A stretch of DNA of 64,000 bases from an alpha proteobacterium BAL199 (GTDB lineage Bacteria; Pseudomonadota; Alphaproteobacteria; Thalassobaculales; Thalassobaculaceae): contig ABHC01000010.1 of assembly GCA_000171835.1 (NCBI GenBank), forward strand, positions 1 to 64,000. Direction: 5' to 3'. Of this stretch, positions 6,050-21,417 are shown piece by piece. The notes under the pieces are model-generated. The model did not search any database and was not told where the DNA came from. It saw only the letters and a program-made list of their open reading frames with translations. A program made the translations under genes and the position numbers. The number at the start of each line of letters is the position of its first letter. Position 1 is the stretch's first letter.

Positions 6050-6057
6050 GCGACCCC

Positions 6058-6176
6058 GCCCTTCGCGGCCGGCTCCGCCAGGCGCCTCGGGACGACAGGA
6101 TGTGGATTGTGTAACCCAACCACCCCTGCCTCTGTCGCCCTGAGGAGCCGGCCAGCAGCCGGCCACGAAGGGCCGC
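6058..6176. repeat. Imperfect long inverted repeat (REP/BIME-like)
   Basis: Arms of about 42 bp occur at 6058-6101 and 6133-6176. The left arm begins CCCTTCGCGGCCGGCT and ends GGGACGACAGG. The right arm, reverse complemented, begins CCCTTCGTGGCCGGCT and ends GGGCGACAG, with several mismatches between. It lies in the otherwise empty gap between two same-strand genes. This is the look of a dispersed intergenic palindromic repeat, though no other copy is in this window. Confidence 0.55.
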
Positions 6177-6260
6177 TCCGGCCCCATTCGTGACGGATAC
6201 CCTTCGACGCTACGCGGGTTCCTGCTACGACGTACCGATGGCGTCGTGACGGAGAGCCCT

Positions 6261-7049
6261 GTGAACACATCCCAAGCTGAGGAAGCCGCCGATCTGGTCT
6301 GGCAGCACTGGCAGGCTGGCACGGTGTTGGACGCCCTGCCTGACGGTCTGCGCCCGTCCACTCGCGCCGAGGGATACGCGATCCAGGCGCATCTTGAGGG
6401 CCGTTCGGCGTCCGCGCTGTACGGCTGGAAGATCGCCGCGACCAGCAGCGCCGGCCAGGGCCATATCGGGGTCGATGGGCCGCTGGCCGGGCGGATCCTG
6501 GCGGAGCGTGTGCACGCGCCGGGCACCACCGTGTCGCTGGCCGGCAACCGGATGCGGGTCGCCGAGCTGGAGTTCGCGTTCCGCTTCGCCCGCGACCTGC
6601 CGCCGCGCGCCGAACCGTACACCCAGGCCGCAGTGCTGGACGCTGTCGCGACCCTGCACCCGGCGATCGAGGTGCCGGACTCCCGGTTCGCCGAATTCGC
6701 CACCGCCGGCGGGCCGCAGCTGATCGCCGACAATGCCTGCGCGCACCAGTTCATGCTCGGACCGGAGGTCACCGCTGACTGGCGGTCACTCGACTTGGCC
6801 ACCCACCGGGTGACCGCCACACTGGCCGACGGCACGACCCGCGACGGCGTCGGCGCCAACGTGCTGGGCGACCCGCGCATCGCCCTGGCTTGGCTGGTCA
6901 ACGAGTTGTCGGCCCACGGCGTCCCCCTGCGCGCCGGACAGGTGGTAACCACCGGCACCTGCGTGGTGCCGATCGCGATCGCGCCAGGCGACCGGGTGTC
7001 GGGTGATTTCGGGGTTCTGGGCAAGGTGGTGGCGGGTTTCGCCGGCTGA
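6261..7049 (+). CDS. 2-keto-4-pentenoate hydratase-family protein
   Basis: A 262-residue member of the fumarylacetoacetase/hydratase fold (MhpD, DmpE type), metal-dependent enzymes that add water to 2-hydroxypentadienoates in meta-cleavage pathways. Visible blocks are YGWKIAATSSAGQ, RVAELEFAFRFARDLP with the acidic metal ligands, ATLHPAIEVPDSRF, LIADNACAHQFMLG and RAGQVVTTGTCVVPIAIAPGD. The GTG at 6261 is preferred over the GTG at 6246 because GGAGAG lies just before it. No neighbouring catabolic genes occur, so the substrate cannot be named. Confidence 0.85.
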   Translation: MNTSQAEEAADLVWQHWQAGTVLDALPDGLRPSTRAEGYAIQAHLEGRSASALYGWKIAATSSAGQGHIGVDGPLAGRILAERVHAPGTTVSLAGNRMRVAELEFAFRFARDLPPRAEPYTQAAVLDAVATLHPAIEVPDSRFAEFATAGGPQLIADNACAHQFMLGPEVTADWRSLDLATHRVTATLADGTTRDGVGANVLGDPRIALAWLVNELSAHGVPLRAGQVVTTGTCVVPIAIAPGDRVSGDFGVLGKVVAGFAG

Positions 7050-7058
7050 CGAGCTGCC

Positions 7059-8285
7059 TCAGCCCACCCCGGTGACCCTCGCCAGGGCGTCGACCACCCG
7101 GTCGACGTCGGCATTCGTCATAGTCGGGAACAGCGGCAGCGACAGGCAGCGGGCATAATACGCCGCCGCCCCCGGCAGCTCCGGCGTCGGATGCGTGGCC
7201 CGGTAGTAGGGCTGGAGGTGCACCGGCGCGTAGTGGACCTGGGTCCCGATGCCCTCGGCGCGCAGGGCGTTCATCACCGCCGCCCGCTCGATCCCCAGTG
7301 CTGCGAAGTCGACCAGCGCCACCGACAGATGCCAGGACGGCTCGCAACCCGCCGCAACCGGCAGGGCGCGGATGTGCGGGCAGAGCCGGTCAAGCCGGTC
7401 GGCGTAGCGCGCCCGCAGGGCCCGCCGGGCCGCCACGAAACGCGGCAGCTTGGCGAGTTGGCGGATGCCCAGGGCGGCGTGGATGTCGGACAGGCGGTAG
7501 TTGAAGCCCGGCTCCGGCATCTCGTAGTACCAGGGGTTCGCGGCACCCTTTGAGTCGAAAGCCCGGTCGCGCTCAGTGAAGCGCTCCGGATCGCGCACCA
7601 TGCCGTGGTTGCGCATCCGCCGCATCCGCTCGTCCAGCACCGGATCGCGGGTGGTCATCACCCCGCCCTCGCCGGTGGCGATGGTCTTGACCGGGTGGGT
7701 GGAGAACATCGCAATCGCGCTGTCCGGGCAAGCCCCGACGGTGTGCCAGGCCTGGTCGCCACCGCGCATCCGACCGCCGAGTGCGTGGCAGGCGTCCTCG
7801 ATGATTGGCACGCCGGGGAATGCCGACGCCAGGGCCGCCACGTCGACGCAGTGCCCGTTCAGGTGGACCGCGACGATCGCCTTGACCCGGTCGCGACCGG
7901 CCCGCGCGGCGGCCGCCTCGGCATGCGGCACCTCCATCAGCCCGGTATCGGAGTTCACGTCGGCAAACGCCACGTCGGCACCGACATAGGCGGCGCAATT
8001 GGCGCTGGCCAGAAACGTCACGCTCGGCACCACCACCGCGTCGCCGGGCCCGAGGCCGAGCGCCAGGGTCGCCAGGTGCAGGCCGGCGGTGCCGCTGGAG
8101 CAGGTCACGGCGTAAGGCACGTCGAGCGCCTTCGCGCACGCCGCCTCGAAGGCGTCGACGGTCGGCCCGGTGGTCAGGAAGTCGCCCTTCAGCACCTCGA
8201 CCACGGCGGCGATGTCGTCGTCTTCGATGACTTGGCGGCCGTAGGGCAGGAACGACGGCGACAGGCCGGGCGGGGGCACGCTCAC
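7059..8285 (-). CDS. pseC: DegT/DnrJ aminotransferase, PseC-like
   Basis: PLP-dependent sugar aminotransferase of 408 residues, probably forming UDP-4-amino-4,6-dideoxy-N-acetyl-altrosamine from the PseB product. Family features are the SGTAGLHLA phosphate-binding block, VVPSVTFLASANCAAYVGA, EDACHALGG, and the HPVKTIATGEGG segment whose lysine forms the internal aldimine. FNYRLSDIHAALGI follows. The GTG at 8285 has GGGAGAAG about 8 nt upstream and lies 4 nt after the secretion adaptor's stop, so it is probably in the same transcript as the type I secretion genes. The PseC assignment rests on pseB in the same region; another DegT sugar transaminase is possible. Confidence 0.82.
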   Translation of the reverse strand: MSVPPPGLSPSFLPYGRQVIEDDDIAAVVEVLKGDFLTTGPTVDAFEAACAKALDVPYAVTCSSGTAGLHLATLALGLGPGDAVVVPSVTFLASANCAAYVGADVAFADVNSDTGLMEVPHAEAAAARAGRDRVKAIVAVHLNGHCVDVAALASAFPGVPIIEDACHALGGRMRGGDQAWHTVGACPDSAIAMFSTHPVKTIATGEGGVMTTRDPVLDERMRRMRNHGMVRDPERFTERDRAFDSKGAANPWYYEMPEPGFNYRLSDIHAALGIRQLAKLPRFVAARRALRARYADRLDRLCPHIRALPVAAGCEPSWHLSVALVDFAALGIERAAVMNALRAEGIGTQVHYAPVHLQPYYRATHPTPELPGAAAYYARCLSLPLFPTMTNADVDRVVDALARVTGVG

Positions 8286-8289
8286 CGGA

Positions 8290-9642
8290 TCACTTCTCCC
8301 GAAGCGCGGTCTCAAGCGACCGGGCGATCGGCGAGATCAGGTAGTCGAGCATGGTCTGCTCGCCGGTCGCGATGATCGCCATCGCCGGCATGCCCGGCAC
8401 GATCTCGACATTGAGGCGCTTCATCATCTCGGCATCGAGCCGGATCCGTGCCTCGTAGAACGGCGGCCCCTTCTCCGGCTGGACCACGTCCGGCGAGATC
8501 TGGGTAACCGTGCCGTCGATCGGCTTGAAGGTCCGCTGGTTGAACGAAGTTAGTCGGACCGTCGCGGCGGCACCCTCCTTCACGGTGTCGATGTCGTTCG
8601 GGTCAAGCTGGACCTTGACGATCAGTTCCTCGTCGTCCGGCACCAGATTGAGGATCGCGTCGCCGGGCGCCACCACGCCGCCATGAGTGTGGAAGCGCAA
8701 GCCGTAGACCTTGCCGGCCTCCGGCGCGTCGATGGTGGTGCGGGTCAGCGCGTCCTGAGCGGCGGTCAACTGCTGGCGCAGGTCCTCCAACTCGATCTGG
8801 GCAGCCCGCAGATCGGTCTCAATCTCGGCGGTCGTGCTCTCAACCAACCCGGATTTCTGGAACTCGGTCTCCGATACCGCCTGGCCGGCCCGCGCCTTCA
8901 GCGCCTGGCGGTTGTCGATCGAGCCTTCCAGCTCAGCCTCGGTGCGTTGCAGGGCGAGCAGCCGCGGTTTGCGCTCCAGCCCTTTCTCGTACAGCTCGCG
9001 AACCCCGACGATCTCCTCGTTGATGATTGCCAGCTGACGACGGTCGGAGCGCTGCTGGGCGTTCAGCGCGGTGATCTCCTCGCGGGCTTTGTCGATCCGC
9101 CGGTCCAGCAGGCTCAACTGGCTGCTGACCGCGGCGCGCCGCCCGTCGAACAGCCGCTGCTCGCCATCGAGGATGTCGGCCACGCCGGGCTGGCCAGCGG
9201 CGCGGATCAGCTCTTCAGGAAATTTGATTACCGGTGTATCGGTGCGTTCTGCCAGCAACCGGGCCTCGCGGCCCAGGGCCGCCAGATACTGCTGGTGAAC
9301 CCGGTCGAACTGAGTTCGGGCGCGGGTGCCGTCGAGAACGACCAACGGCTGACCCTTCTTCACCCGCTCGCCTTCCCTGACCAGGATCTGCTTGATCAAT
9401 CCGCCCTCCAGATGCTGGACGACCCGCTGGTTGCCGACCACCTGGACCTGTCCCTGGGCAACCGCGCCGGACTCCAACGGCGCCAGCGCCGCCCACAGAC
9501 CGAACAACCCGAAGAACAGGAACACGATGCCGTAGCCGAGCCACAGCACGCCACGCCACCCGATCGGATTGGCCTCGTCCTCGCCGAGCGGATCGCTCCA
9601 GCGCGACAGATCGCGGTTTCCTTCGCTGCGTACCAGGGCCAT
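8290..9642 (-). CDS. Type I secretion membrane-fusion protein (HlyD/PrtE family)
   Basis: A 450-residue periplasmic adaptor linking an inner-membrane ABC exporter to a TolC-like channel. It has a short cytoplasmic N-terminus and one membrane helix near residues 32-52 (LWLGYGIVFLFFGLFGLWAAL). A biotinyl-lipoyl half motif follows (GGLIKQILVREGERVKKGQPLVVLDGT), then a long helical hairpin at residues about 110-290. The returning beta-barrel half contains APEAGKVYGLRFHTHGGVV. It lies 16 bp downstream of its ABC partner and just ahead of pseC. No TolC gene and no recognisable RTX substrate are in the window. Confidence 0.93.
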   Translation of the reverse strand: MALVRSEGNRDLSRWSDPLGEDEANPIGWRGVLWLGYGIVFLFFGLFGLWAALAPLESGAVAQGQVQVVGNQRVVQHLEGGLIKQILVREGERVKKGQPLVVLDGTRARTQFDRVHQQYLAALGREARLLAERTDTPVIKFPEELIRAAGQPGVADILDGEQRLFDGRRAAVSSQLSLLDRRIDKAREEITALNAQQRSDRRQLAIINEEIVGVRELYEKGLERKPRLLALQRTEAELEGSIDNRQALKARAGQAVSETEFQKSGLVESTTAEIETDLRAAQIELEDLRQQLTAAQDALTRTTIDAPEAGKVYGLRFHTHGGVVAPGDAILNLVPDDEELIVKVQLDPNDIDTVKEGAAATVRLTSFNQRTFKPIDGTVTQISPDVVQPEKGPPFYEARIRLDAEMMKRLNVEIVPGMPAMAIIATGEQTMLDYLISPIARSLETALREK

Positions 9643-9658: not shown

Positions 9659-11737
9659 CTATCCCTGCTTGTTGGGTCGGGCGGAAATCGCCTGCACGTT
9701 CTGGACCTTCAGCGAAGTCGACTGCGCCTTGATTGCGCCGGGTGGGCGCACCACGACGCCAAGACCACCGACCGGACGCGGCGCCGGCGGAGGCACGATG
9801 CGACGCGGCGCCTCGTCGACGGCTTCCTCATCGCTGGTGATTTCCCGGTCGCCCGGATCGTCACGAAGGTCACGCACCATTTCCGATCCGTCATCCGGCG
9901 GAACAACCGCGGACGGATGGCGAGCAACCACCGAATCGGGCGTTCTTGCCGCCGGTGGCGCGGTCGACGCTCGCGGGGCTTCGGGCGGGGTCTGCCGGTT
10001 GGCTGGCGCATCGAGACGCGGCGGGGGTGCTCCGACCTGCGGCGGGCGCGGGGCGCTCGGCGGCAATGACGGCAGCACTTCTTCGCGAGGCCCAAACCGC
10101 TGCATCGTGCCGTTCTGCAGCACCAATACCTTGTCCATCAGCGACATGGTCTGCGGTCGGTGGGTGATCAGGACCACCGTCACCCCGGCGGCCTTCATCT
10201 CATGGACCGCGTGGATCAACGCGTCGTCGCCCTGAGTGTCCAGATTGGCGTTCGGCTCGTCCAGCACAACGACCCGTGGGTCGCCATACAGCGCGCGGGC
10301 CAGGGCGACACGCTGGCGCTGGCCGCCCGACAGGATCTGTCCGGCCCAGCCGATCTCGGTGTCGTAGCCGTCCGGCAGACGCAGGATCATCTCGTGCAGC
10401 CCGGCCAGCTTGGCCGCCTTGACGACCTTCTCCGGATCGGGGCTTTCCTCGAGCCGGGCGATGTTGTCGGCAACGGTTCCCGGGAACAGTTCGATGTCCT
10501 GGGGCATGAAGCCGACGTGCCGGCCGAGTTCCTCGCCATCCCACGTGAACACGTCGGCGCCGTCCAACCGCACATTGCCGATGGTCGGTTTGGCAACGCC
10601 GACCAGCAGCCGGGCCAAGGTCGATTTGCCGGCCGCCGACGGGCCGATTACCCCCAGCGACTCACCGGCCGGAAGGTCGAAACTGATGCGCTGCAGGATC
10701 GGCTTGGTCAGGCCGGGAGGCTGGAAATACAGGTTCTCCACCGACAGGTTACCCTCAGGCGGCGGCAGTTCCATCTTCTCCAGCCGGTCCTGCGCCGCTT
10801 CCAACACCTCTTCGACCGCCCGATAGGCCTGATAGGCCTCGATCGTGGAACGGGCCTGACCGACCCCAGCCTCGATCGGCTGCAGCGCACGACCGAGGAT
10901 CAGCACCGCCGCAATCATCAGTCCCGGCGTCATCGGGGTCGACGGATCGATGATCTGCGTGACCGATACCGTCATGATGACCATCTGGACCAGCATGCGC
11001 GCCGATTTCGAGATCGCCAGGAAGATCGCCGCGCGATCGCTGGCCTGGCCCTGCAGATCGAGGACCTTCTCGTTGGCGTGGTGATAGCGCCGCAGGATCG
11101 ACTGCCGCATGCCCATGCTTTCGACCACGGCGGCGTTGCGCACTGCCGAATCGGCCGACTGGAACGCGGTCGCGGAATGCTGCTGGGCCTCGGCCAGGGC
11201 CGGACGGGTCAAACGGTCGTTCACAATGCCAAGAATCAGCATGATCAGGGCACCGCCAAGCGCGGCTAGGCCCATTGGCGCGTTGACGTAAAAGATGATG
11301 ATCAGGAAGACCGGTACCCAAGGCAGGTCCAGCATGGTCAGCATGCCTGGGCCGGTCAGGAAGGTGCGCAGCACCGCCAGCTGCCGGAGCACCTGGATCG
11401 AACCGGTCTTGGAGCGGTCCAGTGCGTCGACCACGATCGCCGCCAGAAGCAGCGGGCCGATCCGCCGATCGATCCAGCGCGACACCCGAACGAACGCGAA
11501 CGCCCGGATGCTGTCCAGCGCCGCCTGCACGCCCAGCGCGACGGTTGCCATCAGCAACAGCAGGAACAGCGTCGCGGCACTGCGACTGGCCAGCACCCGG
11601 TCGAACACCTGGTACATGAACAGCGGCATCGTCAGCATCAGCAGATTGACGAAAAAGCTGAACGCCCCGCACGCGGCGAAGGCTGTGTAACAAGCCTTCA
11701 GAAGGCCATGTACGGTGACGGGACCGCGCGGCTGCAT
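9659..11737 (-). CDS. Type I secretion ABC transporter (PrtD-like)
   Basis: A 692-residue inner-membrane ABC exporter that energises one-step protein secretion. It has six membrane helices in residues about 15-290. The nucleotide-binding domain follows: Walker A GPSAAGKST, Q-loop VGFMPQDIELFPG, signature LSGGQRQR, Walker B VVVLDEPNANLD and H-loop ITHRP. There is no N-terminal C39 peptidase domain, so substrates would carry a C-terminal secretion signal. Unusually, about 130 residues rich in Pro, Ala and Arg extend beyond the ATPase. It heads a minus-strand run with the HlyD-like adaptor and pseC, and a 97-aa gene lies 90 bp upstream. Confidence 0.93.
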   Translation of the reverse strand: MQPRGPVTVHGLLKACYTAFAACGAFSFFVNLLMLTMPLFMYQVFDRVLASRSAATLFLLLLMATVALGVQAALDSIRAFAFVRVSRWIDRRIGPLLLAAIVVDALDRSKTGSIQVLRQLAVLRTFLTGPGMLTMLDLPWVPVFLIIIFYVNAPMGLAALGGALIMLILGIVNDRLTRPALAEAQQHSATAFQSADSAVRNAAVVESMGMRQSILRRYHHANEKVLDLQGQASDRAAIFLAISKSARMLVQMVIMTVSVTQIIDPSTPMTPGLMIAAVLILGRALQPIEAGVGQARSTIEAYQAYRAVEEVLEAAQDRLEKMELPPPEGNLSVENLYFQPPGLTKPILQRISFDLPAGESLGVIGPSAAGKSTLARLLVGVAKPTIGNVRLDGADVFTWDGEELGRHVGFMPQDIELFPGTVADNIARLEESPDPEKVVKAAKLAGLHEMILRLPDGYDTEIGWAGQILSGGQRQRVALARALYGDPRVVVLDEPNANLDTQGDDALIHAVHEMKAAGVTVVLITHRPQTMSLMDKVLVLQNGTMQRFGPREEVLPSLPPSAPRPPQVGAPPPRLDAPANRQTPPEAPRASTAPPAARTPDSVVARHPSAVVPPDDGSEMVRDLRDDPGDREITSDEEAVDEAPRRIVPPPAPRPVGGLGVVVRPPGAIKAQSTSLKVQNVQAISARPNKQG

Positions 11738-12239: not shown

Positions 12240-12300
12240 ACGCCGGCCTTTGTAAACCGCCTGTCACTCTTCCCCGCCGGCGGGAACCTGCCGAGATGTG

Positions 12301-13107
12301 ATGATACCTGGTCCGATTCGCAGCTTCCTGAACAACCGCCACCTGATCTGGCAGCTGGCCAAGCGCGACGTGGTCGGTCGCTATCGTGGATCGGCGCTCG
12401 GGCTGGTCTGGTCGCTCATCCAGCCGTTGCTGATGCTCTGTGTCTATACCTACGTCTTCGGAGTCGTGCTGCAAGTGCGGTGGAGCGACCGGCTCCAGGA
12501 CCAGGGCGAGGTCGCGTTTGCCGTCATCCTGTTCTCGGGGCTGATCGTACACGGGCTGTTCACCGAATGCTTCACGCGCGCGCCGACCCTTGTGATCGAG
12601 AACGCCAACTTCGTTAAGAAGGTGATCTTCCCGCTGGAGATCCTGCCCTACACGGTGCTGCTGTCCGCCCTGTTCCACACCGCGGTCAGCATGGTGGTGC
12701 TGCTGGCGGCCCATGTGATCCTGGACCGCGATCTGGCGTGGACCGTTGTGCTCCTGCCGGTGACGGTCGCGCCCCTGCTGATCCTGATGGTCGGGATCAC
12801 CTGGCTGCTGGCATCGCTCGGCGTGTTCCTGCGGGATATCGGACAGGTCACGTCGGTCATCAGCACCGTCCTGCTGTTCGTCAGCCCGATCTTCTTTCCG
12901 GTCGAACGCCTGCCCGAGACCATGCGCGGCATCGTCTACCTCAACCCGCTCAGCCTGATCGTTGATCAGGTTCGCGCGGTGGTACTGTACGGGCGAATGC
13001 CGGACTGGCAGGCCCTCGGCCTGTACACTGCGATCGCGTTGGTCGTCGCTCAACTTGGCTACATGTGGTTCCAGCGCACCCGGCGCGGCTTTGCCGATGC
13101 GTTGTAG
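12301..13107 (+). CDS. ABC-2 polysaccharide export permease (Wzm/KpsM type)
   Basis: A 268-residue inner-membrane permease of exporters that flip finished O-antigen or capsule glycans. The amphipathic N-terminus (IRSFLNNRHLIWQLAKRDVVGRYRGSALGLVWSLIQPLLML) is diagnostic of this family, and about six helices follow. The conserved NPLSLIVDQVRAVVLYGR block precedes the last helix. The ATG at 12301 is used; an in-frame GTG directly precedes it. The expected ATPase partner (Wzt/KpsT) is not adjacent: the next gene is the sulfotransferase-glycosyltransferase fusion on the same strand. It must pair with an ATPase encoded elsewhere or be non-functional. Confidence 0.88.
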   Translation: MIPGPIRSFLNNRHLIWQLAKRDVVGRYRGSALGLVWSLIQPLLMLCVYTYVFGVVLQVRWSDRLQDQGEVAFAVILFSGLIVHGLFTECFTRAPTLVIENANFVKKVIFPLEILPYTVLLSALFHTAVSMVVLLAAHVILDRDLAWTVVLLPVTVAPLLILMVGITWLLASLGVFLRDIGQVTSVISTVLLFVSPIFFPVERLPETMRGIVYLNPLSLIVDQVRAVVLYGRMPDWQALGLYTAIALVVAQLGYMWFQRTRRGFADAL

Positions 13108-13192: not shown

Positions 13193-16100
13193 ATGGCCAC
13201 GACAACCACGCCCAAGGCCCGCGGGACATCCGATCCGGCCGTGCCGGAACGTGCGACCGCGGTCCTCATCCTCGGCATGCACCGAAGCGGCACCTCGGCC
13301 CTGACCCGTGCCTTGAACCTGCTCGGCGTCGCACTCGGCGACAATCTTCTGCCGCCGGCAGCCGGCAACAACGAAACCGGGTTCTGGGAACACCAGAGCG
13401 TCGTCGAACTGCACGAAGAACTGCTCGCCGAACTCGGCATGACCTGGGACGACCCTCGCGCCCTGGCGAGCGACTGGCTGGATCGACCGCAGACGGCCGA
13501 GATCAGGGCGCGTATCGCAACCCGCATGCGCGACGACTTCGGCAGCACGGCACTGTGGGGTGTCAAGGACCCGCGCATGTGCCGGTTCGTGCCGCTGTGG
13601 GAGCAGGTGGCCCACGAAACGGATGCCACACCGGCCTGGGTCATCATGCTGCGGCACCCGTTGGAAATCGTTCGCTCCCTGCAGCAGCGCGATGGCCTGT
13701 CGAGCGGACGAGGGTATCTGCTGTGGCTCCGCCACGCGCTCGAATCCGAGCGACATACCCGCGGTACACCCCGGGTCTTCGTCGACTACGCCTCTCTGAT
13801 GTCGGACTGGCGCGCGACACTGCAGCGGATCGCCGATGAACTCGGCCTGCCGCTCGCGCTGGACGACAGCGGAGCGTCGGATGCAATCGGTGTATTCCTG
13901 AAACCGCAGCTCCGCCACTTCTCGTTCCACGACGAACTGCTGAAGGAAGATGCCCGCCTGGCACGCTGGGTTGGCGCGGCCCACGATGCTTTCGGCAGAC
14001 TGCTGACCGGACCCGACGCCGAGGCCGAGGCCGCCCTTGATCTCCTGGCGGCGGAGCTCGACCTCGCGGGCTGGTACTACGACGACGTGGTGGGCGACGC
14101 CGCGCCGCGCGAGAAGCGGCTGGCCGACGAGATCAACGCATTGCATCAGCGGCTGCATGAACGGCAGATCTGGGCTTCCGAGCAGGAAAGCCGCGTCGGG
14201 GAGCGCGAGGCCCGGATCGCCGAACGCGACACCAGGATCGCCGAGCGCGATGCCATCATCGCCAATCTGCGATCAACGCACGACGAACTCGCGCGCTCGC
14301 AAGCGCGCGCAATAGACGACTTGCAGCAGATCATAAGCGGCAAGGAAGCCGAACAGCATGAACTGCGCAGCGAGATCGCCCGCCTGCACCAGAACTTCCG
14401 ATACGTCGCATCGACGTTTTCCTGGAAGGTGACGCGACCGCTCCGCCTAGTGACCCGGGTTGTATCGGGAATTCTCGGTGCGCTGCGCCTGCGCACGCTT
14501 GAACTGATGCCAATCAGTTTCGTCAATCTGCGTCCACTCGGTCACGGTCACTTCGAGGCCGAGTCGCTGCATCCTTACATGATTCTGGACACTCGGCGCG
14601 GACGCTTGCCGACGGGCTGGGTGGAGGTCGAGTACCGGATCGAGGCCAAGCGCGTCGCGTCTCCGTTCTTGTTCATCGACCAGGGCGCCGGCATCAAGGA
14701 ATCGGATCGGATCCGCCTTCCCCCGACGCGGAACGGCCATGGCAAGGTCATCGTCCGGTTGCCCGATCGGGTGACGGCAATCCGCTTCGATCCGGTGACA
14801 TTCATCGGCGAGTTCAAGCTGGAACCGATTCGCGTCCGTGAATTGAACAGCGTCATGCTTGGAATCCTCCTGGTCTGGCAGCGGATCAGGCCAGCGCTGA
14901 CCAACCGCGATTCCCGGATCCGCATCTGGAACGGCCTTCGGACCGCCTTGAAGCGGGGTGGCATCCGCGAGGTCAAACAGGGCCTGCTTCGTCAGGCCAC
15001 GACACCGCTTCCCGCCTATCACCAGTGGTGCGACGCGTACGCAACGCTGACTGAGGCCGACGTCCAGGCAATCGGCGACCACATCAAGAAGATGAAGGCC
15101 AAGCCGGTTCTGTCGGTGATCATGCCGACCTACAACACCGACCCGGAAGTCCTGGACCGCGCGATCCAGTCCGTTCGCAACCAGATCTATCCGCGATGGG
15201 AGCTGTGCATCGCGGACGACGCTTCGACGCACGGCGAAACTCAGGAAGTGATCCGCCGCCACGCCGGCGAGGACGACCGGATCAAGACGGTGTTCCGGGA
15301 GGTCAACGGTCACATCTCAGCAGCGTCAAACTCGGCGCTTGACCTTGCGACGGGCGATTTCGTGGTCCTGCTGGACCACGACGACGAATTAACGAGCCAC
15401 GCGCTCTACATGATCGCCAGCGAGTTGAACGACCACCCCAACGCCGACGTCATCTACAGCGACGAAGACAAGCTGGACGACAACGGCGAAGCCTATCAGC
15501 CCTACTTCAAGCCGGACTGGTCGCCGGACATGTTCCTGGCGCAGAACTACCTGAACCACGTGAGTGCTCACCGCCGGAGCCTTGTCGAAGTTGTCGGTCG
15601 GTTCCGGGAAGGCTTTGAAGGCAGCCAGGACTACGATCTGGCCTTGCGCGTGATCGAGCGGACGACTGCGGAGCGGATCCGACACATCCCGCATGTCCTG
15701 TATCACTGGCGCGCGGTGGCGGGATCGGTGGCCGGTGCCGATGAAGCCAAGGACTACGCATTGGAGGCCGCCCGGCGGGCGATCACCGAGCATCTCGAGC
15801 GGACCGGGATTGATGGCGAGGTCGTGCCGGGTGCCGACCGGTTCAGCCACCGGGTCATCTACGCGCTGCCGCATACGCTCCCGCTCGTCAGCTTGATCGT
15901 GCCGACACGCAACAAGGCCGAGGTGCTGAAGCTGTGCATCGACGGCATCCGGGAGCACAACGACTACCCCAACTGGGAACTGATCCTGGTCGACAACGGC
16001 AGCGACGAGGATGAGTCGCTCGAGTATCTCGAAGCGCTTGGGAAGGACCCAAGGATCACTGTCCTTCGCGACGACGGGCCGTTCAACTACTCGCGCCTCA

Positions 16101-16750
16101 ACAATCGCGCCGCGCGAATGGCCAAGGGCGAGATCCTCGGGCTTCTGAACAACGACATCGAGCCCATCAACCGGGACTGGCTGACCGAGATGGTCCGTCA
16201 GGTCGTACAGCCGGGAGTCGGGGCGGTCGGCGCCAAGTTGTACTATCCGAACGACACGCTGCAGCATGGCGGCGTGATCGTTGGCCTGGGCGGCGTGGCA
16301 GGGCATTTCGACAAGCGGTTGCCGCGGAACGAACGGGGCTATTTCGGGCGGGCCGGAATCGTCCAGAACTTCACGGCGGTCACCGCAGCCTGCATGCTGA
16401 TGCCGAAGACGGTCTGGGACGAAGTCGAAGGGCTGGACGAGCACCACCTCTCGGTGGCGTTCAACGACGTCGATCTTTGCCTGAAGGTCCGCAAGGCTGG
16501 CTACCGCATCGTCTGGAGCCCATACGCCGAGCTTTATCATCATGAGTCCGTGAGCCGCGGCCAGGACACGGAGCCCGAGAAGCTGGAGCGCTTCGCGTCG
16601 GAAGTCCGCACCATGCAGACCCGCTGGAACACGACGTTCGACGCCGACCCCTACTACAATCCCAATCTCACCCTGGACTACGAGACGCCCCATCTGGCAG
16701 ACCCGCCACGGGTCATCCGGCCTTGGGAAGAGTACTTCGCGGAGGACTGA
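13193..16750 (+). CDS. Sulfotransferase / coiled coil / double GT2 glycosyltransferase fusion
   Basis: A very large cytoplasmic protein of 1185 residues with three parts. Residues about 22-290 are a sulfotransferase-family P-loop domain: GMHRSGTSALTRAL near residue 28 binds the PAPS 5'-phosphate, and VKDPRMC and MLRHPLEIVRS follow. Residues about 305-400 are a coiled coil with repeated IAERDxxIAERD. After the SFSWKVTRPLR motif seen in many polysaccharide glycosyltransferases come two GT-A domains. The first (from about 637) has VIMPTYNTD and DHDDEL; the second (from about 899) has LIVPTRNKAEV, LLNNDIEP and FNDVDLCLKVRKAGYR. It likely builds, and perhaps sulfates, a surface glycan exported by the upstream permease. 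The modules are clear; acceptors are unknown. Confidence 0.9.
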   Translation: MATTTTPKARGTSDPAVPERATAVLILGMHRSGTSALTRALNLLGVALGDNLLPPAAGNNETGFWEHQSVVELHEELLAELGMTWDDPRALASDWLDRPQTAEIRARIATRMRDDFGSTALWGVKDPRMCRFVPLWEQVAHETDATPAWVIMLRHPLEIVRSLQQRDGLSSGRGYLLWLRHALESERHTRGTPRVFVDYASLMSDWRATLQRIADELGLPLALDDSGASDAIGVFLKPQLRHFSFHDELLKEDARLARWVGAAHDAFGRLLTGPDAEAEAALDLLAAELDLAGWYYDDVVGDAAPREKRLADEINALHQRLHERQIWASEQESRVGEREARIAERDTRIAERDAIIANLRSTHDELARSQARAIDDLQQIISGKEAEQHELRSEIARLHQNFRYVASTFSWKVTRPLRLVTRVVSGILGALRLRTLELMPISFVNLRPLGHGHFEAESLHPYMILDTRRGRLPTGWVEVEYRIEAKRVASPFLFIDQGAGIKESDRIRLPPTRNGHGKVIVRLPDRVTAIRFDPVTFIGEFKLEPIRVRELNSVMLGILLVWQRIRPALTNRDSRIRIWNGLRTALKRGGIREVKQGLLRQATTPLPAYHQWCDAYATLTEADVQAIGDHIKKMKAKPVLSVIMPTYNTDPEVLDRAIQSVRNQIYPRWELCIADDASTHGETQEVIRRHAGEDDRIKTVFREVNGHISAASNSALDLATGDFVVLLDHDDELTSHALYMIASELNDHPNADVIYSDEDKLDDNGEAYQPYFKPDWSPDMFLAQNYLNHVSAHRRSLVEVVGRFREGFEGSQDYDLALRVIERTTAERIRHIPHVLYHWRAVAGSVAGADEAKDYALEAARRAITEHLERTGIDGEVVPGADRFSHRVIYALPHTLPLVSLIVPTRNKAEVLKLCIDGIREHNDYPNWELILVDNGSDEDESLEYLEALGKDPRITVLRDDGPFNYSRLNNRAARMAKGEILGLLNNDIEPINRDWLTEMVRQVVQPGVGAVGAKLYYPNDTLQHGGVIVGLGGVAGHFDKRLPRNERGYFGRAGIVQNFTAVTAACMLMPKTVWDEVEGLDEHHLSVAFNDVDLCLKVRKAGYRIVWSPYAELYHHESVSRGQDTEPEKLERFASEVRTMQTRWNTTFDADPYYNPNLTLDYETPHLADPPRVIRPWEEYFAED

Positions 16751-16756
16751 CGCTCC

Positions 16757-19700
16757 CTACTCCGCCGCAGCGGCCCTGCCCGATCCCGACTGCCGGCTGA
16801 CCAACCGCGCGTACAGCCCTCCCTTGGCCAGCAACTCGTCGTGCCGCCCGATCTCGATCACCCGGCCGTGCTCCAGCACCACGATCCGGTCGGCCTCACG
16901 CACCGTCGACAGCCGATGGGCGATGACCACCGTCGTCCGACCCTGCTGCAGCCGTTCCAGCGCGCCGCGCACCAGCCGCTCGTTCACCGCGTCGAGATGC
17001 GAGGTCGCCTCGTCGAGGATCAGCAACGGCGCATCCTTCAGGAAGGCCCGGGCGATTGCCACCCGTTGCCGCTGACCGCCGGACAGGCTGGCTCCGCGCT
17101 CGCCGACCCGGGTCGCCAGGCCATCCGGCAGACTGTCGACCAGATCGCCGAGCGCCGCATGATCGACGGCGGCCCGCAACTCGGCATCGCTGGCATGCGG
17201 CTTGGCCATCCGGACGTTGGCCTCCAGCGTGTCGTTGAACAGGTAGGTGTCCTGGGCCACCAGGGCGACCCGGTCCAGCACCTGCTCCAGCCGGTGGGCC
17301 CGCAGGTCGAGGCCGTCGAGCAGGACGCGCCCGGACTCGGGATCCCAGAATCGCATCAGCATCTGCGCGGTGGTGGTCTTGCCGGCGCCGGATGGGCCGA
17401 CCAGCGCCACGGTCTGGCCTGGCTCGACCGCGAACGTCACACCGTCGAGCGCCGGCCGGTCGGTTCCGGGGTAGCGGAAGCGGACATCCTCCACCGACAG
17501 CGCGACACCGCCGGCCGGCCGAGCGGTCGTGACACCCGGGCCGTCCTGGACCACCGGGACCTCGACCTCGACCGCGTGGATCCGCCGGGTAGCGCCAAGC
17601 GTATCGGCAAGCTGCCGACCGATCTGCGCGATCTCCGACACCGGCAGGAATGCCGCCAGTGCCAGCAGGGTCAGCAGCGGCAGCAAGCCGGGATCGATGG
17701 CACCTGCCGCGGCGCGCGACGCTCCGGTCACAACGATCGCCAGACCGCCAAGGCCGGTCAAGACTTCCAGCAGGCTCTGCTGGGCGGTCAACTCCCGGAA
17801 GAACGGCATACGGTGCCCAACGTGGGCATCGGTCAGCCGATCAAGATCATCGCCACGCGCCGCCTCCTGGCGGTTGGCGACGATCTCGCCAAGACCCTGA
17901 ACCGAATCCACCGCATGGGCGGCCAGTTCGCCGGACGCTTCGCGCGCCTTGGAGCCAAGGCTGTCGACCCGGCCGCGCATCAGCCACGGGCACAAGCCGA
18001 CCGCCAGCAGGAACGGGGTCAAAGCGACCGCCAGCCAGACATCGGCCCAGCCCAGCGTCGCCAGCACCGCCGCCGGCACCAGCACCGCTACGAACGCCGG
18101 CGCCACGGTGTGGGCGAAGAAGTACTCGACCAGTTCCACGTCCTGGGTGGCGATGCCCATCAGGTCGCCGGTGCGCCGCCGCACCAGATAGGCCGGCGCC
18201 AGCTTGTCGAGCTTGTCGAACAACGCGATCCGCATCTCCGCCAGCAGCCGGAACGCCACGTCATGGGCCAACCAGGATTCCGCCCAATGCAGGATGCCGG
18301 CCAACGGCGCCGTCACGAACAGCCAGGGCAGCAGCGGCTCGAACGGCCGCCCTTCCTTCAGGGCCAGGACGATCAGCGCGCTGATCACCCCGACACCGAT
18401 GAACGCGATCACCCGCGTCACCCCGAACAGGAAGGTCAGGGTCATCCGTCCTTTCCAGGGGACGATCATCGCCATCAGCATGGCGACCAGCCGCATCCAG
18501 CCGAGGCCCTCGGCCGCGACGATCCCCTCGGTCGGCCCGCCCAGCACGTCGTAGCGCCGGGTCGACGCAGCCGCTTCGGTAGCCGCCGCAACAGGCGCCT
18601 CATCCAGATCGCCATCGCCAGCCGCGCGTTCGGAGTCGCGGACCTGCGCCGCCATCAGGGAGGCGTAGACCCCGCCCTTGGCCAGCAGTTCGCGATGCGG
18701 CCCTTCCTCTGCTACCCGACCGTCGTCGAGCACCAGGATGCGGTCGCAGTCGATCACGCTGGACAGCCGGTGCGCCAGGATCAGCGTGGTGCGCCCCTGC
18801 ATCAACCGATCGAGGGCCGCCTGGATGGTCGCCTCGTTCTCGGCATCGACCGCCGACAATGCCTCGTCCAGCACCAGGATCGGCGCGTCGCGCAGGATCG
18901 CCCTGGCGATTGCCACCCGCTGGCGCTGGCCACCCGACAACTTGATGCCCTTCTCGCCGACCGGGGTGTCGTAGCCCTGCGGCAGACCGCTTACGAAGCC
19001 GTGGATGTTGGCAGCCAGCGCCGCCTCGATCACCTCAGCCTCGGTCGCATCCGGCCGGCCCAGGCGGATGTTCTCGCCGATCGTGCCGTGGAATAGGAAG
19101 GCGTCCTGCTGGACTACCGCGATGCGCGAGCGGATCGCCTCGAACGGCAGGCTGCGCAGATCCTCGCCGCCGATCCGCACGGTGCCGGCCTCGGGGTCGT
19201 AGAACCGCAGCAGCAGCCGCACGATCGATGACTTGCCGACGCCGGACGGGCCGACCACGCCAATCCGCCCGCCCGGTCGCACCGCAAAGCTCAGATCTTC
19301 ATGAGTGACCCGCCGGCTGCCCGGATAGGCGAAGCGGACGCCTTCGAAGGCGATGCTCGGCTCCAACTCCGGCACGGCGCGCGCGGGCGCGTCGACCACC
19401 GGCGGCTGGGCGTCGAGCAACCGGTACAGCCCCTGGGCGGCCGACAGGCCGACCATCCCCTGGTGCAGCACGGTGCGCAGGTCGCGCATCGGCCGGAAGA
19501 TCTCCACGCCCATCATCAGGATGACCAGCAGTGCCGACAGTTCCATGGCGCCGGCCTCGACCCGCCACGCGCCGAGCGCGAGGGCAGCGGCGGCAGCGAT
19601 GGCGATCGAGGCGTCGGTGATGCCGCGCGCCGCGGTGTTGGTGCCAAGCACCCACATGGTGGTGCGGAACAGCTCGCGCGCCTTGTCAGCCAACATGCTC

Positions 19701-20353
19701 GCCCGGTCGCCGGACTGCCCGAATGCCTTCAGGGTGGCGAGGCCCTGGATCGAATCGAGCAACTCGGCGGCAAACGCGGCGTAGGCGCGCTGCCGGGCTT
19801 TGGAGTTCGCGGTGTCGCGCTTGTGCCACATCGCGGGCGCCAGCAGGGCGACCAGCGCAAAGCCGAGCAGCACCGCCGCCACCGGCAGGTCGAGCCAGGC
19901 GACGAAGGCGAAAATCAGGATCGGGGTCAGCACCGCCACCAGCAGCTGCGGCAGGTACTGGCCAAAATAGGTCTCCAGTTGCTCCACCCCGTCGATCAGC
20001 GCCAGGGTCAGGTCGCCGGACCGCTCGCTGCCGACATAGGCCGGGCCGAGCGCGGTCAGCCGCTCGAACAGCGCGCGCCGCAGGTGCTTCTGCACGATCG
20101 CCGCGGTCTCGTGGGCGATCATGGTGCGCCACTGTTCAAACACGCCACGCAGCACCATCACGACGGCAACACCCGCTGCTGCCGACAGCAGGTCCGTCAG
20201 GCTGTCGCCGGCGAACACCCGGGCGATCAACCAGCCGAGCAGCGCCAACCTCGCGACGCCGAGGCCGACGGCGACCAGCCCGACCAGAACCGCCCAGACG
20301 ATCCGCCCGCGAACACCTTCGGTGAAGGCCCAAAGACGAGGTTCGAAATGCAT
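16757..20353 (-). CDS. Tandem (full-length) ABC exporter, CydDC-like arrangement
   Basis: A single 1198-residue polypeptide with two complete halves, each a six-helix transmembrane domain followed by an ATPase. Half one has GPSGVGKSS near residue 370, LSGGQRQRVAIARAI and LVLDEALSAVD. Half two has GPSGAGKTTTAQ near residue 984, LSGGQRQRVAIARAF and LLILDEATSHLD. Both sites look catalytically complete. The layout recalls fused CydD-CydC thiol exporters and double multidrug exporters, but no cytochrome bd genes are nearby. The ATG at 20353 has GGAG 8 nt upstream and is preferred to a GTG at 20362. It is divergent from a LysR regulator, which probably controls it. Confidence 0.88.
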   Translation of the reverse strand: MHFEPRLWAFTEGVRGRIVWAVLVGLVAVGLGVARLALLGWLIARVFAGDSLTDLLSAAAGVAVVMVLRGVFEQWRTMIAHETAAIVQKHLRRALFERLTALGPAYVGSERSGDLTLALIDGVEQLETYFGQYLPQLLVAVLTPILIFAFVAWLDLPVAAVLLGFALVALLAPAMWHKRDTANSKARQRAYAAFAAELLDSIQGLATLKAFGQSGDRASMLADKARELFRTTMWVLGTNTAARGITDASIAIAAAAALALGAWRVEAGAMELSALLVILMMGVEIFRPMRDLRTVLHQGMVGLSAAQGLYRLLDAQPPVVDAPARAVPELEPSIAFEGVRFAYPGSRRVTHEDLSFAVRPGGRIGVVGPSGVGKSSIVRLLLRFYDPEAGTVRIGGEDLRSLPFEAIRSRIAVVQQDAFLFHGTIGENIRLGRPDATEAEVIEAALAANIHGFVSGLPQGYDTPVGEKGIKLSGGQRQRVAIARAILRDAPILVLDEALSAVDAENEATIQAALDRLMQGRTTLILAHRLSSVIDCDRILVLDDGRVAEEGPHRELLAKGGVYASLMAAQVRDSERAAGDGDLDEAPVAAATEAAASTRRYDVLGGPTEGIVAAEGLGWMRLVAMLMAMIVPWKGRMTLTFLFGVTRVIAFIGVGVISALIVLALKEGRPFEPLLPWLFVTAPLAGILHWAESWLAHDVAFRLLAEMRIALFDKLDKLAPAYLVRRRTGDLMGIATQDVELVEYFFAHTVAPAFVAVLVPAAVLATLGWADVWLAVALTPFLLAVGLCPWLMRGRVDSLGSKAREASGELAAHAVDSVQGLGEIVANRQEAARGDDLDRLTDAHVGHRMPFFRELTAQQSLLEVLTGLGGLAIVVTGASRAAAGAIDPGLLPLLTLLALAAFLPVSEIAQIGRQLADTLGATRRIHAVEVEVPVVQDGPGVTTARPAGGVALSVEDVRFRYPGTDRPALDGVTFAVEPGQTVALVGPSGAGKTTTAQMLMRFWDPESGRVLLDGLDLRAHRLEQVLDRVALVAQDTYLFNDTLEANVRMAKPHASDAELRAAVDHAALGDLVDSLPDGLATRVGERGASLSGGQRQRVAIARAFLKDAPLLILDEATSHLDAVNERLVRGALERLQQGRTTVVIAHRLSTVREADRIVVLEHGRVIEIGRHDELLAKGGLYARLVSRQSGSGRAAAAE

Positions 20354-20435
20354 ACCCGCCACTCCAGCGTTCCAATGATTGAAAGCACCCTACGTCGAAC
20401 GCTTTCGTTCGTCCGTGGACAATACCGAAGATCAG

Positions 20436-20453
20436 CCGTACAAAAACGTACGG
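20436..20453. promoter_or_regulatory. Dyad CCGTAC-N6-GTACGG between the ABC exporter and lysR
   Basis: An interrupted inverted repeat lies in the 134-bp divergent gap, 35 bp before the LysR start and 83 bp before the exporter start. The position suits a LysR-type regulator acting on both genes. The dyad is an observation; binding is inferred. Confidence 0.45.
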
Positions 20454-20487
20454 ATGATCCGTCAACGACAGCAACTAGTGTAGTTCC

Positions 20488-21417
20488 ATGATCGGTGATT
20501 GGGACAACCTGCGGACCTTCCTGGCGCTGGCCGAGGAAGGCAGCCTGACGGCGGCGGCAAAACGGCTGCGCGTCAGCCATCCGACCATCGCCCGCCGGAT
20601 CAAGACGCTTGAGGAGGAGTTGGGGACCCGGCTGTTCGACCGGCTGCCCGATCGCTTCCAGCCGACCGAACCGGCATTGGAACTGCTGCACGATGTCAAG
20701 GAGATGGAGCGCGCCTCGCAGTCCATCGACCGCCGAAGCGCCGGGCTGTCCGGCTCGCACCTCGGTACGGTGCGGATCTCGGTCGACGAAATCACCGCCG
20801 ACTTCCTCGGCCGGCATCTCGCCGCAATGCGCGCCAACCATCAGTGCATCGAGTTCGAAATCGTCGTCGCCCATATCTCGGCCAACCTGTCGCGCCGCGA
20901 AGCCGACCTGCTGGTGCGCTCACGGGTCCCGGACCTTGCCAGTCTGGTCGGCCGCAAGCTCGGTGCCTTTGCCTACGCCGTTTACGGTACCGCGGAGTTT
21001 GCCGCCGGCTGCGACGGTTCGACCATCGCGCTGAAAGAGCTTCCCTGGGTCGGCTTCGACGACGAGCACCAGTACATGCCCGGCCAGGCTTGGCAGACCA
21101 CGTTGCTCGGCAACCGACGCCCGGCAGTGCGCACCAACAACGGCATCGTGCTGGCCAATGCCGTCCGCGGCGGTAATGGCGTCGGGATCTTGCCCTGCTT
21201 CCTCGGTGACGCCGACCCGCTGTTGAGTCGGATCACGCCGATCCTGGACGAAGCCCGCGCCGAGCAGTGGCTGCTGGTGCATTCCGACCTGCGCCATGTG
21301 CCGCGCGTGCGGATCGTCATCGACGTGCTGGTGGACCTGTTCCGCCGCAGCCGGGCGGAGATCGAGGGCGAGACGGTCCCCGTGCCACTCCGCGAGGTAC
21401 CTCGCCTCACCGCCTAG
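20488..21417 (+). CDS. LysR-family transcriptional regulator
   Basis: A 309-residue regulator. The N-terminal winged helix is MIGDWDNLRTFLALAEEGSLTAAAKRLRVSHPTIARRIKTLEEELGTRLFDR, with the classic A-x-L-x-V-S-x-x-x-I-x-x-I-x-x-LE pattern. A linker helix and a periplasmic-binding-protein-like effector domain (residues about 90-300) follow. It belongs to the group resembling amino-acid or AmpR-type regulators in general shape, but the effector cannot be deduced. Divergent orientation to the tandem ABC exporter and an intervening dyad suggest that exporter is its target. Confidence 0.93.
   Translation: MIGDWDNLRTFLALAEEGSLTAAAKRLRVSHPTIARRIKTLEEELGTRLFDRLPDRFQPTEPALELLHDVKEMERASQSIDRRSAGLSGSHLGTVRISVDEITADFLGRHLAAMRANHQCIEFEIVVAHISANLSRREADLLVRSRVPDLASLVGRKLGAFAYAVYGTAEFAAGCDGSTIALKELPWVGFDDEHQYMPGQAWQTTLLGNRRPAVRTNNGIVLANAVRGGNGVGILPCFLGDADPLLSRITPILDEARAEQWLLVHSDLRHVPRVRIVIDVLVDLFRRSRAEIEGETVPVPLREVPRLTA

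Follow-up and report, generated by a model that had tools for sequence, protein, structure and literature searches.

A PAPS-type sulfotransferase joined by a coiled coil to two glycosyltransferases: a candidate self-terminating glycan polymerase

Domain order of the fusion gene

The window, by which we mean the whole 64,000-nucleotide stretch of DNA analysed here from the alpha proteobacterium BAL199, contains a single open frame on the forward strand (13193-16750) that encodes an 1185-residue protein. The original prediction of a sulfotransferase, a coiled coil and two glycosyltransferases in one protein of this length was borne out by the frame, Pfam, a structural model and fold search. It had overlooked a carbohydrate-binding module (CBM)-like domain that precedes the glycosyltransferases. 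The gene, its parts and the exporter permease before it are as follows.

12298..13107, +: Wzm-type ABC exporter permease (PF01061), 85 bases upstream of the fusion and on the same strand
13193..16750, +: whole gene; sulfotransferase - coiled coil - amphipathic segment - CBM-like domain - GT2 - GT2, 1185 aa
13250..14092, +: PAPS-type sulfotransferase domain, residues 20-300, from model and fold search
13274..13300, +: 5'-phosphosulfate-binding loop GMHRSGTSA, residues 28-36; 28-35 invariant in 71 sequences
13388..13390, +: Glu66 of the NETGFWEH motif, invariant in 71 sequences; candidate catalytic base
13565..13576, +: KDPR motif, residues 125-128; K125, P127 and R128 invariant in 71 sequences
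13652..13678, +: 3'-phosphate-binding motif R154...S162, both invariant in 71 sequences; aligned with SULT1A3
14108..14410, +: coiled coil, proposed molecular ruler, residues about 306-406, called by a heuristic
14201..14263, +: three 21-bp tandem repeats encoding IAERD heptads
14414..14488, +: junction TFSWKVTRPLRLVTRVVSGILGALR, residues 408-432, proposed membrane contact
14495..14842, +: CBM-like beta-sandwich (CBM6/29/35/86), residues 435-550
15113..15511, +: first GT2 (GT-A) domain core, residues 641-773 (Pfam Glycos_transf_2)
15887..16543, +: second GT2 (GT-A) domain, residues 899-1117

Both glycosyltransferase domains scored over the Pfam cut-offs: Glycos_transf_2 matched two stretches (E 1.3e-50), the best being 641-773, and the best stretch of Glyco_tranf_2_3 was 899-1117. 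BLAST matches to the sulfotransferase, the coil, the middle domain and the two glycosyltransferases lay in this order and in one frame in nine genomes of the bacterial family, including that of the window, and in a tenth (L052) every piece except the middle domain was matched in order; the ten frames span 1177-1254 codons from stop to stop. Because the ordered pieces recur in one frame across family genomes, the fusion is not a chance product, and the full architecture is conserved within the family.

The IAERD-repeat coiled coil that had been described from the sequence was recovered, its heptads encoded by the three tandem repeats, and the SFSWKVTRPLR motif was present at the junction. The coil was called with a heuristic of our own, and coils of relatives span 78-127 residues in the 11 of 14 proteins measured; on the heuristic call, the non-polymerase enzyme domain sits at the coil end distal to the polymerase modules. 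Residues 415-432, which overlap the SFSWKVTRPLR motif, ranked first in hydrophobic moment among the 1168 windows scored along the protein.

Site and fold of the sulfotransferase domain

The Pfam family Sulfotransfer_3 matched residues 24-221 in the protein search at E 8.9e-6 and 26.5 bits, just below the cut-off of 27, and was listed over the cut-off in the genome search at 29.1 bits. We settled the identity of the domain with an AlphaFold2 model of residues 1-305 (mean pLDDT 91.9) and a fold search. All 14 Foldseek matches at E<=0.001 were PAPS-type sulfotransferases or their domains, with moderate TM-scores of about 0.4-0.5 for the best. In VIA the top match was human TPST1 (Z 16.1, rmsd 3.9, 208 aligned residues); TPST entries scored Z 15.2-16.1 and were followed by P-loop kinases at about 10.4-11.0. 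Sequence searches against solved structures gave one unrelated match (E 0.96) with profile A1, and mostly sulfotransferases, weakly (E 0.024-1.2), with profile A2.

The putative PAPS site was compared across an alignment of 71 sequences, comprising the window and 70 of 80 relatives' loci (all but L071, L081, L097, L112, L123, L124, L125, L134, L140 and L143), in which GMHRSGTS, R154 and S162 showed no variation. The GMHRSGTSA loop corresponds to the 5'-phosphosulfate-binding (5'-PSB) motif, and R154 and S162 to the 3'-PB Arg/Ser pair; the R154...S162 stretch aligns, with a weak score, with RNPKDVAVS of SULT1A3. The window's domain thus has both the 5'-PSB P-loop and the 3'-PB Arg/Ser, and by site and modelled fold it is assigned to the PAPS-dependent sulfotransferases. 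The P-loop sulfotransferase of the original prediction therefore stands, and the PAPS-binding residues, whose loss had been named as grounds for rejecting it, are kept.

Genomic company of the sulfotransferase

The fusion is widespread, with at least 587 relatives, and the best-scoring 80 of these were taken as named loci; counts on them are therefore not those of a random sample. Architecture was read for 79 of the 80, the sulfotransferase frame of L081 being missing, and of 53 C-terminal parts that qualified 50 were scanned (L067, L078 and L109 were dropped for size). Among these best 80 of at least 587 relatives, wzt lies on the same strand and ends less than 1 kb before sulfotransferase homology begins at 19 loci; wzm or wzt lies within the fetched stretch at 26 and was not found there at 54. 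One of the loci (L064) has the order wzm-wzt-sulfotransferase-coil-CBM-GT-GT, the same as in the window, and in Dyella and Rhodanobacter (L075, L084, L086, L112) a sulfotransferase-coil protein of 423-496 aa follows wzt with no glycosyltransferase detected, Pfam having been run on L075 and L112. The sulfotransferase thus often adjoins Wzt and sometimes a PAPS-making gene: cysC, which encodes APS kinase, lies about 30-70 bases downstream of the fusion at four Pseudomonas loci (L091, L097, L130, L134), two of which (L130, L134) gave no wzm or wzt match, and with the CysNC-like genes of L133 and L139 such genes occur at 6 of the best 80.

The domain could have ceased to transfer sulfate and instead bind a glycan end or a nucleotide in a structural role, as might be suggested by the O antigen of Aeromonas salmonicida A450, whose authors describe it as apparently without sulfate although a 216-aa sulfotransferase-domain protein is encoded between Wzt and WbbB (PMC4483657). 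We consider such a loss of activity improbable, given that the PAPS-site residues are invariant and that cysC adjoins the fusion at the four loci above. The A. salmonicida protein also counts against a sulfate cap, and it is set beside the window's domain by domain label only.

The sulfotransferase was found in 42 of 398 Pseudomonadota genomes, a sample that includes the window's own. It occurred together with Wzt_C in 14 genomes versus 6.9 expected (Fisher p 0.003), or in 15 versus 9.0 expected (p 0.017) when weak Wzt_C matches were included. Among 20 near-complete genomes of the family, 17 had both and 3 had neither; the 17 include genomes with other sulfotransferase arrangements (G010, G019, G013, G021), and the search for Wzm covered 19 of the family's 20 sulfotransferase genomes (all but G011). 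Relatedness within a family makes its genomes non-independent, and Fisher values serve as a guide only. The main rival to a terminal role is that the domain sulfates sugars inside every repeat while the GT2 domains polymerize, which would yield a decorated polysaccharide with no cap, the coil merely tethering modifier to polymerase. Consistent with this, 28 of the 42 sulfotransferase-positive genomes lack Wzt_C over the cut-off, so the family has other uses, and a sulfated capsule is described in Vibrio sp. KMM 8419, where a single cluster holds the genes for sulfotransferase, PAPS synthesis and ABC exporter (PMC11641403). However, in the near-complete family genomes the sulfotransferase co-occurs with Wzt_C, a cap-reading kind of domain, and its position at the coil end far from the glycosyltransferases is that described for characterized terminators (PMC11231755). 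On balance we regard internal sulfation as a possible but unlikely reading.

At the locus itself, the Wzm-type permease was correctly predicted to lie directly before the gene, and it is the sole strong Wzm match in the genome. The original prediction had overlooked genes for type I secretion, PseC and PseB, which are conserved neighbours on the opposite strand: PrtD, HlyD, PseC and usually PseB recur among 13 orthologous loci. Wzm adjacency as a conserved context was rejected, as Wzm was found only in L052 among the 13. Two forward-strand gene models without a Pfam match (16841-19096 and 19301-20491) were treated as non-genes because both overlap the ABC gene at 16757-20362 (-); the model at 5663-7114 (-) had no Pfam match. 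In the window's genome wzm and wzt are on separate contigs, eight other Sulfotransfer_3 matches lie on contigs other than these, and APS kinase matches are present. Wzm/Wzt with a Wzt C-terminal carbohydrate-binding domain, as expected of terminator-type systems, is present as genome context only, with Wzt_C elsewhere in the genome; the solved-structure match of Wzt was to its ATPase part.

These neighbours raise the possibility that the domain acts as RaxST does in Xanthomonas, which has been linked with a type I-secreted peptide (PMC3071791), its substrate being a protein or peptide that the adjacent system exports. PrtD-type ATPase and HlyD genes adjoin the gene at 11 of the 13 orthologous loci, only one of which also has Wzm, and the top VIA matches are tyrosylprotein sulfotransferases. 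TPST1, TPST2 and RaxST act on tyrosine. They share the PAPS sulfotransferase fold with our domain, but we know of none fused to glycosyltransferases, whereas here the sulfotransferase shares one chain with a CBM-like domain and a pair of GT2 domains. It also follows Wzt at the 19 loci counted above, and about 7 kb of 5' flank at one orthologous locus, L053, held no match to the type I secretion genes. Two reduced genomes, Candidatus Endolissoclinum (G013), which carries CBM-GT-GT, and its inferred sister (G021), gave no match of the PrtD type at E<=1e-80 (0/2) yet keep the sulfotransferase, Wzm and Wzt_C; that search covered the PrtD type only, and function in such symbionts is uncertain. RTX-like repeats (at least three GGxGxD per frame), which might point to a type I substrate, were absent from the window and from L043-L062. 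We give sulfation of a secreted protein or peptide very little weight.

A proposed sulfate terminator

We somewhat favour a model of the protein as a self-terminating glycan polymerase with a sulfate cap, a length set by the coil and export by Wzm/Wzt. Elongation of a lipid-linked chain would take place at the inner membrane and be carried out by the two C-terminal GT2 domains, which the CBM-like domain would assist and the amphipathic segment following the coil would keep at the membrane. The coil would keep the sulfotransferase away from the polymerase, so that a chain would be sulfated only once it had grown long enough to meet the sulfotransferase; with PAPS as donor, the enzyme would modify the non-reducing end, and the terminal sulfate would stop growth and mark the chain for export, being read by the carbohydrate-binding domain of Wzt. 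A role for the coil as locator had been predicted; from the layout, we judge spacer or ruler to be more likely.

The layout matches that of characterized polymerase/terminator/ruler proteins, with the sulfotransferase replacing a methyltransferase or kinase. ORF6 of Klebsiella pneumoniae O7 (methyltransferase-kinase-CBM-coil-GT2-GT2) also combines terminator, coil and polymerase modules in one chain, with an N-terminal modifying enzyme, a CBM-like domain, two C-terminal GT2 domains and Wzm/Wzt export; in contrast, its terminator makes a methylphosphate end and its CBM lies before rather than after the coil (PMC11231755). The string 'sulf' is absent from the main text of that paper. WbdD of E. 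coli O9a has an N-terminal terminator enzyme and a C-terminal coiled coil, a layout that the sulfotransferase-coil proteins after wzt resemble, but it is a kinase-methyltransferase and its polymerase, WbdA, is a separate protein (PMC3482155). WsaE of Geobacillus stearothermophilus likewise carries a capping enzyme N-terminal to two GT domains and is encoded beside wzm-wzt, although the enzyme is a 2-O-methyltransferase and the product an S-layer glycan of a Gram-positive bacterium (PMC2943079).

What would be new is thus the sulfotransferase as terminator, the layout being known. We found neither a characterized member of the sulfotransferase-coil-GT2 fusion nor an earlier description of sulfate as a chain-end cap in the open literature, and to our knowledge no chemistry is known for any member of the family. 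The N-terminal sulfotransferase, singled out earlier as the unusual part, is therefore unusual as a characterized enzyme but not as a gene architecture, and of the other objection raised in advance, that the fusion might be widespread and already characterized, the first half applies. Context (PAPS residues, PAPS fold and the company of Wzm/Wzt) favours the view that sulfation and sugar transfer are coupled on one surface glycan, and the activity is something we infer.

Known export caps are few, comprising methylation, (methyl)phosphorylation and unique sugars such as Kdo in the account of a 2022 structural paper (PMC9445017). We tentatively suggest, with rather less confidence than the model itself, that sulfate is a further class of cap for the export of surface glycans and O antigens beside methyl, (methyl)phosphate and Kdo, that a widespread sulfotransferase-coiled-coil family installs it and the carbohydrate-binding domains of Wzt recognize it, and that chain length can be retuned in evolution through the number of 21-bp heptad repeats in the coil. 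If true, a sulfotransferase in the terminator's place would present Wzt with a charged cap and so with a recognition problem of a new kind. Relatives vary in natural coil length, and the family therefore offers a test of the proposed coiled-coil ruler. A terminator role could also account for 'sulfotransferase' genes beside wzm-wzt. Some proteins of the family are encoded by short, stand-alone genes.

Domain architecture and sulfotransferase fold

13193-16750, + strand: ST-coil-CBM-like-GT2-GT2 gene, single open frame, 1185 residues

The original prediction of a sulfotransferase, a coiled coil and two glycosyltransferases in one 1185-residue protein was borne out by this single frame, by Pfam, by a coiled-coil heuristic and by a model of the N-terminal sulfotransferase (ST) domain. 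Pfam gave a borderline Sulfotransfer_3 match at residues 24-221 and two GT2 glycosyltransferase (GT) domains, with best stretches at 641-773 and 899-1117; the heuristic placed the coiled coil at 306-406. The IAERD heptads derive from three 21-bp tandem repeats (14201-14263), and a relative, L052, has 5.5 copies. The hydrophobic moment, calculated over 1168 windows of the protein, was maximal at residues 415-432, a segment with a net charge of +4. Overlooked in the predicted domain list was a carbohydrate-binding module (CBM)-like beta-sandwich at about residues 435-550. A model of residues 425-640, built using six sequences, had a mean pLDDT of 77 and scored best in its beta part; the top PDB matches of the modelled sandwich were mostly carbohydrate-binding modules (CBM6, 29, 35 and 86; best E 1e-5). 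This gives the domain order ST, coil, amphipathic segment, CBM-like, GT2 and GT2.

The AlphaFold2 model of ST had a mean pLDDT of 91.9, and all 14 Foldseek matches at E ≤ 0.001 were sulfotransferases, with moderate TM-scores (about 0.4-0.5). In VIA, TPST1 reached Z 16.1 (rmsd 3.9, 208 aligned), and P-loop kinases ranked after the sulfotransferases (Z about 10.4-11.0). APS kinase matches are present in the window's genome. We aligned 71 ST sequences, from the window and 70 of the best 80 loci of named genomes (35-50% identity to the window). Among others, GMHRSGTS (28-35), E66, K125, P127, R128, R154 and S162 were invariant. R154 and S162, spaced by eight, line up, at a weak score, with the part of SULT1A3 that binds the 3'-phosphate. 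The residues for binding the sulfate donor PAPS, whose loss had been named as evidence against the original prediction, are thus retained.

Distribution of the fusion

ST was found in 20 of the 36 genomes of the window's family, and nine family genomes, including the window's, carry all five pieces in a single frame. The L052 frame has all pieces except the middle domain, those of L053 and L055 are truncated by contig ends, and the L054 fusion is divided among frames. L048 covers ST, the coil and some of the middle domain in 597 codons, and its 20 kb of fetched sequence gave no GT hit. At least 587 relatives came from a profile scan across named genomes, and ST was present at E ≤ 1e-10 in 42 of 398 genomes drawn evenly from Pseudomonadota. 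Among 50 C-terminal parts scanned, Glycos_transf_2 was found in 28, Glyco_trans_1_4 in 21, RgpF in 8 and WbsX in 5 (overlapping tallies), and ST-glycosyltransferase fusion is thus common. The N-terminal sulfotransferase had been called unusual, which does not hold for the gene architecture and does hold for a described chain terminator: we found no report of a sulfotransferase in that role in the open-access literature, most subscription papers lying outside this scope.

In Candidatus Endolissoclinum faulkneri L5, a reduced-genome tunicate symbiont, the fusion is split, with no coil frame between the parts (locus L066; also L059):

L066 9932-10819: ST frame, 296 aa
L066 11188-13506: CBM-GT-GT frame, 772 aa

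A published study of this symbiont lists a 'putative glycosyl transferase', P856_104, shortened by 34.8% (PMC3851785); its length fits this split, and from length only we infer its identity. The authors of the study describe late LPS genes as absent and allow that the shortened genes may be in decay, so ST, Wzm and Wzt_C in this symbiont are no proof of function.

Exporter context and a proposed role in capping

The exporter permease gene wzm adjoins the ST gene in the window and L052, and ST, wzm and the ATPase gene wzt lie inside about 10 kb in L056, L057 and L061, family loci with other ST arrangements. Each of the 19 ST genomes tested (of 20 in the family) has exactly one strong Wzm match, and 18 have Wzt_C, the cap-reading kind of Wzt domain. 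Of the family's genomes, 20 are at least 90% complete; ST and Wzt_C are both present in 17 of these and both absent from 3. Across all 36, 19 had both, 1 ST only, 4 Wzt_C only and 12 neither, and the genomes behind the five mismatches are 69-88% complete. Eight other Sulfotransfer_3 matches in the window's genome all lie off the wzm and wzt contigs. The usually adjacent wzm and wzt are on separate contigs in this genome (C60 and C41) and in G004 and G005, whose Wzm proteins are 65% and 74% identical to the window's (others tested, 40-48%).

Outside the family the ST-Wzt link is physical: in 19 of the best 80 of at least 587 loci, Wzt lies upstream on the same strand and ends within 1 kb of the point where ST homology begins. 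Either wzm or wzt was in the fetched stretch of 26 of these 80, and neither was found in that of 54. L064, from a Lake Baikal alphaproteobacterial MAG, has the order wzm-wzt-ST-coil-CBM-GT-GT. In four Pseudomonas loci cysC follows the fusion by about 30-70 bases, two of them (L091 and L097) with wzm-wzt directly upstream; CysNC-like genes occur in L133 and L139. Across the phylum sample, 14 genomes combined ST with a Wzt_C over cut-off, against 6.9 expected (p 0.003), or 15 against 9.0 (p 0.017) with weak Wzt_C matches added; the two lay within 1.5 kb in four of those 15 and within 7 kb in seven.

According to published work, the terminating enzyme of Klebsiella O antigens sits at the end of a coiled coil distal from the polymerase, the coil acting as a molecular ruler, and O7 ORF6 is a single protein that runs from a methyltransferase-kinase through a CBM and a coil to two GT2 modules (PMC11231755); methylphosphate added by WbdD ends the chain and is required for export (PMC3482155); and in WsaE a domain that caps with methyl is fused to two GTs, with wzm-wzt as neighbours (PMC2943079). 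The protein under study follows this plan, except that a sulfotransferase occupies the terminator position. WbdD is located after wzt, a format resembled in Dyella and Rhodanobacter by an ST-coil protein after wzt with no GT detected (L075, L084, L086 and L112). On the basis of this shared plan and format, we propose that ST would cap the chain with sulfate while its length is controlled, a role that we consider somewhat probable. Wzt_C over cut-off was missing from 28 of the 42 ST genomes of the phylum sample, which counts against capping and favours sulfation of internal repeat units by ST, a reading that we judge rather unlikely. In A. salmonicida, a sulfotransferase-domain gene lies between wzt and wbbB, and sulfate was reportedly not seen in the O antigen (PMC4483657); we argue that a single capping residue on each chain could escape detection.

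Neighbouring genes

Window 3157-4179, 7059-8315, 8290-9642 and 9659-11737, - strand: conserved arrangement of pseudaminic acid (PseB, PseC) and type I secretion (ATPase, HlyD) genes

Genes for HlyD, PseC and a type I secretion ATPase of the PrtD type, in most cases joined by PseB, lie beside the gene in 11 of the 13 orthologous loci (L043-L055); the two exceptions are L055, a contig of 4.5 kb, and L053, whose 5' flank of about 7 kb lacks them. PseB and PseC, which catalyse pseudaminic acid steps, both exceeded NCBIfam cut-offs. That ST serves type I secretion is a weakened explanation, as the reduced genomes of E. faulkneri L5 and its inferred sister (G021) have no PrtD match at E ≤ 1e-80 yet carry ST, Wzm and Wzt_C. 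The link between a type I system and pseudaminic acid genes deserves separate study. PseI, cytidylyltransferase and GNAT genes are grouped on contig C53.

In L044 (7842-8702), L046 and L047 the ST-coil-GT gene is immediately preceded by one for a second Sulfotransfer_3 protein with a GGSGT loop; in L061 (4404-5321) such a protein is encoded between wzt and ST. Pfam was run on those of L044 and L061 only. A second two-GT homologue in the window's genome (contig C63, about 113.9-115.7 kb; L002/L003) is in two pieces, the second with one in-frame TAG, and is possibly a decaying gene. Window 16757-20362 (-) encodes a protein of 1201 aa that combines two ABC exporter halves on a single chain, and both CydD and CydC models exceeded cut-off on it.
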